DNA of 64,000 bases from Hyphomonadaceae bacterium (GTDB taxonomy: Bacteria; Pseudomonadota; Alphaproteobacteria; Caulobacterales; Hyphomonadaceae): positions 62,001 through 126,000 of the forward strand of contig JALHLU010000002.1 of the NCBI GenBank assembly GCA_022844345.1, given 5' to 3'. Position numbers and translations under genes: made by a program. Positions 14,686 through 18,515 of this stretch are shown piece after piece. Position 1 is the stretch's first letter. Every line of letters begins with the position of its first letter. The notes below the pieces were generated by a model that saw only the letters and a program-made list of their open reading frames with translations, searched no databases and had not been told where the DNA came from.

Positions 14686-16797
14686 ATGACCGACACCGTC
14701 AAACTTGTTGTCGATGGCGTCTCGGTGGATGCGCCGAAGAGCTACACGCTACTGCAGGCTTGCGAGCTGGCGGGGGCCGAGATCCCGCGCTTCTGCTATC
14801 ACGAGCGGCTGTCGATCGCCGGCAACTGCCGCATGTGTCTTGTCGACTGGGTTGGCGCGCCGAAGCCGATAGCGTCGTGCGCCCAAACTGTGGGCGACAT
14901 GGCGCCCAAGAAGGACGGCACGCCTCACGAAATCTCGACCCGCAGCCCGCGCGCCATCAAGGCGCGCGCCGGTGTGATGGAATTCCTGCTGATCAACCAC
15001 CCGCTGGATTGCCCGATCTGCGACCAGGGGGGCGAGTGCGACCTTCAGGACCAGGCCATGGGCTATGGCCGCGCCGCCTCGCGCTATCAGGAGAACAAGC
15101 GCGCGGTCGACGACAAGAACATGGGCCCACTGGTCAAGACGATCATGACCCGTTGTATCCAGTGCACCCGCTGCGTGCGCTTTGCGGCCGAGGTTGCCGG
15201 CGTGGACGAAATCGGTCTCGCCAATCGCGGCGAGGATGCCGAGATCACGACGTATCTCGAGAAGTCGCTGACGTCCGAGCTGTCGGGAAATGTGATCGAC
15301 CTGTGCCCGGTGGGCGCGCTGACGTCGAAACCCTACGCGTTCAATGCGCGTCCGTGGGAGCTGCGCAAGACCGAGAGCATCGATGTGATGGATGCGATGG
15401 GCGCCGCGATCCGCGTGGATGCGCGTGGGCCGACCGTGATGCGCATCCTTCCCCGCGTGAGCGAGGAAATCAACGAAGAGTGGATTTCGGACAAGACGCG
15501 CTTTGTATGGGATGGCCTTGGCCGCCAGCGTCTCGACAAGCCGTATGTGCGCACTAATGGAGCGCTGGCTGCTGTGACCTGGGACGAGGCGCTGAAGCAG
15601 GCGGCGGAATTCCTGAAAGTCTCAGGCGACCAGATCGGTGTGATCGCCGGTGACCTGGCGGACGCCGAGAGCATGAAGGCCGCGCTGGATATGGCGACGT
15701 CGCTTGGCGTCAAGTCGATCGACTGCCGGCAGGATGGCGTGAAGCTGGGGCTGGCCGCAGACGGAACGAAGCTGCCGCGCGAAAGCTATCTGTTCAATTC
15801 GACCATCATGGGCATCGACGAGGCGGACGCGATCCTGCTCGTCGGGGTGAATCCGCGCAAGGAAGCGGCCGTTCTGAACGCTCGCATCCGCAAGGCCTGG
15901 CTGCGCATGGTTCCGATTGCAGTGATCGGCGAGCGCGTCGACCTGACATACGACTACAAATATCTGGGCGCTGGTCCTGACTCGCTGGGCGAGCTGAAGG
16001 CCGGCCACCCGGCGTTCGACGAACTGGCGAACGCGAAGCGTCCTCTGATCATCGTCGGGCAGGGCGCGCTGACGCGTGGCGATGGCGCGGCTGTGCTGAA
16101 TGCGGTCTCGGCGCTCGCGGCGAATGTTGGCGCGTTTGTGGACGGCTGGAACGGCTTCAGCGTGTTGCACACGGCCGCGGCGCGTGTGGGTGGGCTCGAT
16201 CTTGGTTTCCTGCCGGCGGCCGGCGGCAAGGATGTGGCGAGCATCATGGCGGGCGCGCAGTCCGGCGAGATCAAGACCGTGCTGCTGCTGGGCGCGGACG
16301 AGATCGATACGTCCAGGCTCGGCGCGGCGAAGGTGATCTACATCGGCAGCCATGGCGACAATGGCGCCCACCGCGCCGACGTTATCCTGCCGGCGGCGGC
16401 GTACACCGAGAAGTCGGCGACGTATGTGAACACCGAGGGCCGCGTTCAGCGGACGCAGCGCGCCGTGGCGCCAAAGGGCGACGCGCGCGAGGACTGGGCG
16501 ATCATTCGTGCGCTGTCGGCCTATCTCGGCAAGACGCTTCCTTACGACAGCCTCACGCAACTGCGCGAGACGATGGGCAAGGACCATCCGACTTTCCTCG
16601 GGCTGGATTTCGCGCCGGGCCGCCATGGGGGCAGCATGGCTCCGCCCTATGGATCCCCCGGAGCGATCCAGTCTGCGCCGTTCCGGAATGCGGTCACCAC
16701 GTTCCACCTGACCAACCCGATCGCCCGCGCCTCGCGCACCATGGCCGAATGTGCCGAACTCGCTGCGGGGCATAACCCCGCCGTGGCTGCGGAATAG
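14686..16797 (+). CDS. nuoG: NADH-quinone oxidoreductase subunit G
   Basis: 703-residue 75-kDa subunit with the peripheral-arm cluster chain. [2Fe-2S] N1b: Cys37, Cys48, Cys51, Cys65. His-ligated N5: His105, Cys109, Cys112, Cys118 (DCPICDQGGEC). [4Fe-4S] N4: Cys157, Cys160, Cys163, Cys207. The remainder is the molybdopterin-oxidoreductase-like domain that has lost its cofactor role in complex I. Length is normal for alphaproteobacteria. Confidence 0.97.
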   Translation: MTDTVKLVVDGVSVDAPKSYTLLQACELAGAEIPRFCYHERLSIAGNCRMCLVDWVGAPKPIASCAQTVGDMAPKKDGTPHEISTRSPRAIKARAGVMEFLLINHPLDCPICDQGGECDLQDQAMGYGRAASRYQENKRAVDDKNMGPLVKTIMTRCIQCTRCVRFAAEVAGVDEIGLANRGEDAEITTYLEKSLTSELSGNVIDLCPVGALTSKPYAFNARPWELRKTESIDVMDAMGAAIRVDARGPTVMRILPRVSEEINEEWISDKTRFVWDGLGRQRLDKPYVRTNGALAAVTWDEALKQAAEFLKVSGDQIGVIAGDLADAESMKAALDMATSLGVKSIDCRQDGVKLGLAADGTKLPRESYLFNSTIMGIDEADAILLVGVNPRKEAAVLNARIRKAWLRMVPIAVIGERVDLTYDYKYLGAGPDSLGELKAGHPAFDELANAKRPLIIVGQGALTRGDGAAVLNAVSALAANVGAFVDGWNGFSVLHTAAARVGGLDLGFLPAAGGKDVASIMAGAQSGEIKTVLLLGADEIDTSRLGAAKVIYIGSHGDNGAHRADVILPAAAYTEKSATYVNTEGRVQRTQRAVAPKGDAREDWAIIRALSAYLGKTLPYDSLTQLRETMGKDHPTFLGLDFAPGRHGGSMAPPYGSPGAIQSAPFRNAVTTFHLTNPIARASRTMAECAELAAGHNPAVAAE

Positions 16798-16806
16798 GAG
16801 GGCGCA

Positions 16807-18021
16807 ATGGAGAACCTCTTCACTTGGGGCGGCGGGATGTGGGGCGGTATCGGCCTCGCCGTGCTGCAGATCCTGGCGCTCGTTGTCATCCTGCTGGTGT
16901 GCATCGCCTTCCTGCTGCTGTTCGACCGCAAGGTCTGGGCGGCGGTGATGATGCGCAAGGGCCCGAACGTGGTGGGGCCGTTCGGTCTGCTGCAGTCGTT
17001 CGCCGACCTCATAAAGTTTGTGCTTAAGGAAGTGATCGTTCCGGCTGGCGCCAACAAGACAGTGTTCCTGATGGCGCCGATCATTACGCTGACGCTGGCG
17101 CTGGTCGGCTGGGCGGTTATCCCGGTTGCGCCGGGCTGGGTGGTGGCCGACCTCAATGTCGGCATTCTTTATCTCTTCGCGATCTCGTCGCTTGGCGTCT
17201 ACGGCATCATTATGGGTGGCTGGGCGTCGAACTCGAAGTATCCATTCCTTGGCGGCCTGCGGTCTGCGGCGCAGATGGTGTCCTACGAAGTCTCGATTGG
17301 CTTCGTGATCGTGACCGTGCTGCTGCTGGTAGGCTCGCTCAATATCTCTGATGTCGTGCACAATCAGGAAGGCGGTTTCTGGAACTGGCACGCGTTTGCG
17401 TTCCCGACGATCTTCGTCATGTTCCCGATGTTCGTGATCTTCTTCATCTCGGCGCTGGCGGAGACCAACCGCCCCCCATTCGACCTGCCGGAAGCGGAAT
17501 CCGAACTCGTGGCCGGCTATCAGGTCGAGTACTCGTCCTCGCCGTACCTCATGTTCATGATCGGCGAGTACGTCTCGATCGTGCTGATGTGCGCGATGCT
17601 GTCGATCCTGTTCTTCGGGGGCTGGCACATGCCGGTGCCGATCCCGGGCGTTGACGGCCTGCCCTCGTGGTTGCTGAGCCTTGGCGGGTTGCTCGTCTTC
17701 ATGGTCAAGGTGACCTTCTTCTTCTTTCTGTTCGCGATGGTGAAGGCGATCGTGCCGCGTTATCGCTACGACCAGCTGATGCGGCTGGGCTGGAAGATAT
17801 TCCTGCCGACCTCGCTCGCAGCGGTGGTTCTTGTGGCGGCTTACGCAACCTTCACGAATGCGCAGATGCGTCCGGGCTTCGAAGAGCTTGATGCAAACAG
17901 CAGTGGGGCGCTGGAGGCATCCGAACTGATTGCTGTGACGCTGCCGGCGGGCATGGACCGCGACAAGGACGGCGTCATCAGCTGGAACGAGTATCGCCGC
18001 AACGCTGGCGCGGTGAATTAG
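16807..18021 (+). CDS. nuoH: NADH-quinone oxidoreductase subunit H with C-terminal EF-hand pair
   Basis: 404 residues. Residues 1-350 are an ordinary NuoH (ND1-like), the membrane subunit that closes the quinone chamber: [20 protein letters not shown], the [21 protein letters not shown] loop and [20 protein letters not shown]. After the last helix (about 335-350) comes an added tail with two perfect 12-residue EF-hand loops: [12 protein letters not shown] (362-373) and [12 protein letters not shown] (384-395). Oxygen ligands at loop positions 1, 3, 5 and 12 and Gly at 6 are present in both. NuoH normally ends soon after the last helix, so this is an unusual fusion. Both termini of NuoH are thought to face the periplasm. 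Confidence 0.96.
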
Positions 18022-18029
18022 GAGACGTC

Positions 18030-18515
18030 ATGTCGATCGGCCAGGCCATTCGGGGAGCGATGCTGACGGACTTCCTCGGCGCGTTTTTTCTGTCGATGAA
18101 GAAGTTCTTCAGCCGCAAATACACGATCAACTACCCGTTCGAGAAAGGGCTGCTGAGCCCGCGCTTCCGCGGCGAACACGCCCTGCGTCGCTATGCCAAT
18201 GGCGAGGAGCGCTGCATCGCGTGCAAATTGTGCGAGGCGATCTGCCCGGCGCAGGCCATCACCATCGAGGCCGAGCCGCGCGAGGACGGCTCGCGCCGCA
18301 CGACGCGATACGACATCGACATGGTGAAGTGCATCTATTGCGGCTTTTGCCAGGAAGCCTGCCCGGTGGACGCCATCGTGGAAGGCCCGAATTTCGAGTT
18401 CGCCACGGAAACGCGGGAAGAACTCTACTACGACAAGGAGCGGCTTCTGGAGAATGGCGACCGCTGGGAACGCGAGATCGCACGCAATCTGGAACTTGAC
18501 GCGCGCTACAGATAG
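18030..18515 (+). CDS. nuoI: NADH-quinone oxidoreductase subunit I
   Basis: 161-residue 23-kDa subunit with two [4Fe-4S] clusters (N6a, N6b). Ligand sets: Cys62, 65, 68 with Cys111, and Cys101, 104, 107 with Cys72, in two CxxCxxCxxxCP motifs. It relays electrons from NuoG to NuoB. A 97-base gap to nuoJ follows, the longest inside the operon, holding only a short GCCCC/GGGGC hairpin at 18566-18579 and no T-run. Confidence 0.97.

Follow-up and report, generated by a model that had tools for sequence, protein, structure and literature searches.

The nuoH gene in the 64,000-nucleotide stretch of Hyphomonadaceae DNA analysed here (the window) encodes a complex I subunit that continues past its last membrane helix into two EF-hand loops. 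Core complex I subunits seldom change their domain content. Here two well-known families are truly combined in one protein, which in this analysis occurs only within a single subclade of one genus, where the tail was gained once within our sample and the fusion is kept by selection. We tentatively propose, at somewhat under an even chance, that an EF-hand module fused once to NuoH would act as a calcium-filled structural cap. Such a single-origin, selected fusion on the quinone-chamber subunit, with close relatives that carry the tail and others that lack it, amounts to a natural experiment on whether complex I can be influenced by calcium from outside.

The gene lies at 16807..18021 on the forward strand, a single unbroken frame in the ORF list from the ATG at 16807 to the stop at 18019-18021, and encodes 404 residues including the C-terminal extension. 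On the whole protein PF00146 (NADHdh) gives 400.5 bits over residues 21-344 in the Pfam scan (cut-off 27), and the NCBIfam NuoH model NF004745 gives 545.8 bits (cut-off 450). It is the single NuoH match in the window genome at E<=0.001. In the nuo operon it is placed between two forward-strand ORFs which we take to be nuoG (14686..16797, 703 aa) and nuoI (18030..18515, 161 aa, starting 8 bases past the nuoH stop), the names being given by operon position and the usual make-up of the operon's families. Queries made from both neighbours match beside the nuoH of the relatives, in loci long enough to include them. Downstream of the last transmembrane segment defined by hydropathy (residues 331-349, 17797..17853), the alignment shows a short linker with the entering segment of loop 1 (residues 350-361, 17854..17889), followed by loop 1 (residues 362-373, 17890..17925) and loop 2 (residues 384-395, 17956..17991), all on the forward strand, the two loops being located by Pfam scan, alignment and ligand conservation. 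Hence the ORF and the Pfam scan agree with the first-pass annotation, made from the window sequence, that the frame runs unbroken from the last NuoH helix into two 12-residue loops.

In total, 55 residues follow the last membrane segment, so that the usual early end is not found in the window protein. Indeed, NuoH had been said to end ordinarily soon after its eighth helix, and in 35 tail-less near relatives it stops 4-9 residues past the segment aligned to helix 8, as it does 0-7 residues past that segment in 21 tail-less distant relatives; in this comparison 4 loci were unparsed and a few loci represent one genome taken twice. The closest solved NuoH/ND1 chain, 8qby_H (345 aa), presumably from Paracoccus denitrificans, aligns with its residues 15-331 to window residues 18-349 and has 14 residues beyond the match, compared with 55 residues and two EF-hand loops in the window protein. 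Two further solved chains are also extended past the matched core, namely 8e9g_H (408 aa, match ending at 341) and 4he8_H (365 aa, match ending at 325), which we assume to be mycobacterial and from Thermus respectively; their matches to the window NuoH stop before the tail.

The possibility of a separate small gene starting at the in-frame ATG at 17866 (Met354), from which the first-pass annotation had its feature begin, was rejected, since this methionine is not conserved: across the alignment of nine genes, window included, its column contains M,T,I,A,A,V,G,G,G, which makes a separate start unlikely. A sequencing or assembly artefact, and with it the out-of-frame tail that had been named as one finding that would refute the fusion, is excluded as explanation by the recurrence of the tail in 10 of the 15 genomes of the genus with many synonymous differences. 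The base composition of the tail bears no clear mark of foreign origin relative to the core (GC of 0.62-0.65 versus 0.59-0.61, and a lower GC3 of 0.70-0.78 versus 0.83-0.90).

In both window loops position 1 is Asp, position 3 Asn or Asp, position 5 Ser or Asp, position 6 Gly, position 8 Leu or Ile and position 12 Glu, a composition that, apart from position 8, had been read correctly beforehand and that conforms to the EF-hand loop consensus (D at 1, D/N/S at 3 and 5, G at 6, a hydrophobic residue at 8, E at 12). In the Pfam scan, EF-hand_5 reaches 28.9 bits on the whole NuoH, above its cut-off of 25.9, and 36.6 bits on the 53-residue tail piece, with E=2.5e-9 for the tail alone, whereas EF-hand_1, 6, 7 and 8 are under their cut-offs on the whole protein; of the two models that had been suggested for a search of the C-terminus, EF-hand_5 thus passes on the whole protein and EF-hand_7 does not. 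The description of the tail as a pair of EF-hand loops holds for the loops, which are canonical, while the hands are possibly incomplete. In all 8 tail rows of the loop-pair survey 10 residues separate the NuoH loops; the 23 other loop pairs in EF-hand loci of the genus lie 12 to 31 residues apart. According to an excerpt of PMC10232371, about 25 residues between loops is typical of calcium-responsive EF-hand proteins, and 12-13 residues are found in lanmodulins. Given a spacing of 10, which falls short of that typical value, the NuoH tail is not a standard EF-hand pair and normal two-site binding is not assured. Furthermore, so short an inter-loop stretch, which in the window protein includes Pro and Gly, would probably leave the second hand without a full entering helix.

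The hydropathy profile of NuoH displays eight strong segments and one weaker segment (55-73), which in the NuoH family is not a membrane helix. In the window protein, loops 38-54, 137-161 and 313-330 hold 4, 2 and 5 Lys/Arg residues respectively, and loops 106-117, 181-195 and 271-293 are free of these residues; loop 215-251, with one basic and six acidic residues, is uninformative on topology. This charge pattern puts the C-terminus outside, in agreement with the periplasmic side claimed for it earlier and with the NuoH family, whose termini face the periplasm. A periplasmic location of the C-terminal tail is thus supported by the charge pattern.

Among the 15 genomes of the genus, the tail is present in 10, an ordinary NuoH end in four (G002, G009, G011 and G014), and the remaining genome, G005, yielded no match for NuoH. 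Nine of the tail-bearing genomes have a single NuoH frame; in the other one, G007, core (L010) and tail (L086) are split over two contigs and were treated apart. A set of named genomes yielded 49 loci, 8 with the tail, labelled as Hyphomonadaceae or Alphaproteobacteria metagenome bins, and one truncated by a contig end, all nine being the same assemblies as the genus genomes and adding no evidence. For the family, order, class and phylum, whose samples overlap, a profile of the last helix plus tail (A1) was used. In the family, 98 of 105 genomes match at E<=0.001, including 10 where a NuoH match spans the tail, and 7 have no match. In the order, 4 of 348 genomes match at E<=1e-19, all in the same genus, and both in the class (385 genomes, 4 at E<=1e-15) and in the phylum (398 genomes, 70 at E<=1e-11) the tail is spanned in our own genome only. 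No tail-spanning NuoH was therefore found outside the genus in these four samples, where for order, class and phylum part of the first-look candidates was scored (e.g. 15 of 29 in our own genome), at E-value limits under which a fusion whose tail differs strongly could escape. Six further family matches to the profile are not NuoH, and three of these were read. The matches of G126 (profile residues 7-83) and G016 are single-helix EF-hand proteins and not NuoH fusions, and the non-NuoH match of G009 is the monooxygenase-like L159. In the Latescibacterota loci L063 and L067, with matches to residue 385, the NuoH frame stops at the last helix and there is no tail.

The tail was mapped on a tree, as the first-pass annotation had suggested. 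When NuoH cores alone are compared (30 rows, tail left out), all 10 tail-bearing rows form one clade with a support of 100/100. The nuoG tree also groups the tail-bearing genomes and gives the same split, with an SH-aLRT of 95 (29 rows, 9 with tail, quick method; L005 was omitted for a matched stretch of <90 residues and L086 is without nuoG). The nuoI tree (30 rows) does not contain the split and implies 5 changes; nuoI is very conserved.

The purifying selection that acts on the tail is seen in the nine full-length tail-bearing genes, in which dN/dS is 0.235 for the tail, 0.156 for the two loops and 0.075 for the core, with a tail dS of 1.16. The tail thus exceeds the core about threefold in dN/dS, and about sixfold in dN. 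In three pairs on separate tree branches, the tail shows 55.2 synonymous differences in 105.2 sites versus 41.8 nonsynonymous differences in 344.8, which corresponds to a pN/pS of 0.23 (Fisher p=2e-16, a test that treats sites as independent). Moreover, every residue in the eight side-chain ligand columns is D, N, S or E throughout the 10 tails, their variation being a D/N exchange at position 3. Columns with oxygen-donor residues alone make up 8 of the 8 ligand columns versus 3 of the 41 other tail columns, and strict invariance, found in 6 of 8 and 12 of 41 respectively, is weakly above the rest (Fisher p=0.039). At position 6 of loop 1, one of the 10 tails (G010) has Asp instead of Gly. Together, the conserved ligands and the purifying selection support a function that would depend on metal-type loops.

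As a possible source of the tail, the EF-hand proteins of the genus were considered. In our own genome, EF-hand_5 gives 32 matches at E<=10, spread over 16 ORFs, NuoH included, and of the 15 other ORFs 14 were read, C2:27180 being the remaining one. Six of the 14 are one family with a CxxCH motif, L131 is a large repeat protein, and the match in the nuclease-like protein L144 looks like chance; several of the small ORFs whose start is in view begin with what looks like a signal peptide. Six further genomes of the genus, tail-bearing and tail-less, have 9 to 33 matches each at E<=0.05, and of 14 control genomes 5 are positive in the same search. Another ten EF-hand ORFs, from relatives, picked by frame length and some of them cut by contig ends, have 0 to 2 hydrophobic segments each, and none looks polytopic. 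The best six non-NuoH matches to the tail profile are C-terminal EF-hands of the family to which the six CxxCH proteins belong, called monooxygenase-like here, the top one, at 32.6 bits, coming from the tail-less G009. The tail module thus probably derives from the lineage's own stock of EF-hand proteins, a source that the profile matches suggest and do not prove, since EF-hands resemble one another.

A second inner-membrane protein of our own genome, a sodium:dicarboxylate symporter (L186:418-1887 (-), first part at G000:C3:236616-237002; PF00375 at 347.7 bits), bears two EF-hand-like loops inserted between helices 1 and 2, a region that faces outward in the symporter family; its insert gives 22.5 bits with EF-hand_5, under the cut-off of 25.9. 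With the N-terminal part of the symporter as a query, 13 of the 105 family genomes match at E<=1e-15, 11 of them over full length, and these 11 are the 10 NuoH-tail genomes and G005, for which there are no NuoH data. The insert is found at L187-L191 and L194-L198 besides L186, and is absent from L192 and L193 of the tail-less G002 and G014, where a short loop takes its place. G009, G011 and the other 90 family genomes show no symporter match at E<=1e-15, an insert-free symporter being possible there, and among 289 class genomes our own was the sole match at E<=1e-20. Positions 1, 3, 5 and 12 of both symporter loops are D, N, S or E in 11 of 11 rows, and Gly occupies position 6 of loop 1 in 9 of 11; at position 8 of loop 2, 8 of 11 rows have Ala in place of the usual hydrophobic residue, which is non-canonical. 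The loops are 15 or 17 residues apart, compared with 10 in the NuoH tail. Given that the genomes share ancestry, these are not eleven independent cases, and the data are consistent with two gains, NuoH tail and symporter insert, on or near one branch. We are doubtful that this lineage has built periplasmic calcium into its inner-membrane energy coupling, with respiration and uptake sharing a calcium signal or partner; if it were so, complex I, through NuoH, and the symporter would both have gained EF-hand loops on the periplasmic face in the same genomes. The parallel insert makes the NuoH fusion more interesting and suggests a wider pattern, worth a systematic search. An EF-hand in a symporter was not found in a search of open-licence literature, which is a weak absence.

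According to the structural reading that we prefer, an extension some 50 residues long that bears the two EF-hand loops, gained once in one subclade of the genus and probably taken from the lineage's EF-hand proteins, would exit the last helix on the periplasmic side and there most likely bind calcium. The calcium-filled cap, held on a short linker, would pack on the periplasmic face of the complex I heel and rigidify or protect the NuoH end. This is favoured by a periplasm open to external calcium and by the short linker of the tail; furthermore, periplasmic calcium may keep canonical loops filled, so that a structural role would fit better than a switch, which is not needed to explain the data. 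Counting against the cap, the approximately threefold dN/dS and sixfold dN of the tail relative to the core would also fit a weakly used appendage. The raised dN/dS can indeed be taken one step further, to an EF-hand protein fragment tolerated at the end of the protein with selection acting only against misfolding, and the genus does have EF-hand modules at the ends of other proteins; however, the eight ligand positions keep their oxygen donors in every tail despite a tail dS of 1.16, and we hold such a passenger to be rather improbable.

Calcium regulation of complex I via the tail, and recruitment of a partner by it, both raised in the first-pass annotation, are possible roles that would go beyond the supported fusion and periplasmic side. 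As a sensor, the tail would respond to periplasmic calcium by shifting the last helix, thereby tuning the quinone chamber or the proton path and complex I activity. On the outer side it is attached straight to the final helix of this quinone-chamber subunit, and in an excerpt of PMC13171946 a periplasmic EF-hand protein of Caulobacter, an alphaproteobacterium, is described as a calcium sensor. However, canonical EF-hands may be saturated in the periplasm, and in the samples searched the tail occurs in one subclade only, with four members of the genus having a tail-less NuoH, and we regard a sensor as unlikely. A comparably low likelihood is given to a docking tag, in which the calcium-loaded tail would recruit a partner in the periplasm or membrane, which the dicarboxylate symporter might share: two unrelated inner-membrane proteins do carry EF-hand loops in the same genomes (10 tails and 11 inserts), but the two kinds of loops differ in spacing and sequence, and loop 2 of the symporter is without the usual hydrophobic position 8 in most rows. 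Binding of a lanthanide, manganese or magnesium instead of calcium, in the manner of lanmodulin, appears very improbable. Over both loops, the tail profile matches the lanmodulin-type chains 8fns and 6mi5 (E of 1.5e-5 and 2.1e-5), and the spacing of 10 resembles the short inter-loop distance of 12-13 residues given for lanmodulin in the excerpt of PMC10232371; many calmodulin-type chains, however, score equal or better against the same profile, and the NCBIfam model for lanmodulin, whose cut-off is 135 bits, reaches 15.2. Moreover, lanmodulin is a free protein, with four hands and, in at least one of them, a proline at loop position 2 according to that excerpt, whereas the NuoH tail has two loops, 10 residues apart, and no proline at position 2.

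The earlier statement that no calcium-responsive bacterial complex I has been described proved too strong. In E. coli complex I, a Ca ion is assigned to NuoG, and both activity and stability are known to increase with divalent ions, as given in an excerpt of PMC8357420. Since this site is on the peripheral arm, where it is formed by scattered NuoG side chains and waters and not by an EF-hand loop, it is a different site from the NuoH tail. An EF-hand in NuoH or in any bacterial complex I subunit was not found among the open-licence papers listed, again a weak absence. In Gram-negative bacteria, the Caulobacter protein CaBP is periplasmic and has EF-hand loops like the NuoH tail (PMC13171946), but is described there as a 133-residue protein with three EF-hands, the window loops being instead part of a respiratory subunit. 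The EfhP of Pseudomonas is likewise described as a Gram-negative protein with two EF-hands.

Several other EF-hand proteins were observed along the way. The CxxCH family is present in several copies per genome (L118, L119, L125, L126, L129 and L137 in our own, L159-L169 in relatives) and has a C-terminal EF-hand pair, the CxxCH motif being seen in our own six. L118, the one member scanned, displays sub-threshold matches to Cu2_monoox_C and Cytochrome_CBB3, from which the family would be monooxygenase-like. L199 (G011:C14), which we take to resemble an S41-type peptidase, ends in an EF-hand pair and is another case of an appended EF-hand in the genus. In L170, L174, L176 and L208 from the genus and L209 and L210 from the family, an N-terminal segment is followed by a hydrophobic stretch, computed for L208 and seen by eye in the other five, and then by EF-hands. 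The N-terminal segment presumably resembles a ribbon-helix-helix DNA-binding domain, and in a scan of two such proteins ParG matches one of them, at 15 bits and hence under its cut-off of 21.4; these proteins are candidate membrane-bound calcium-responsive regulators. Their relative in the window genome, L178 / L121 (G000:C9 near 172862-173182 (-)), keeps the EF-hand part, while the DNA-binding-like part is not seen upstream in the open frame, and it may be disrupted or differently arranged.
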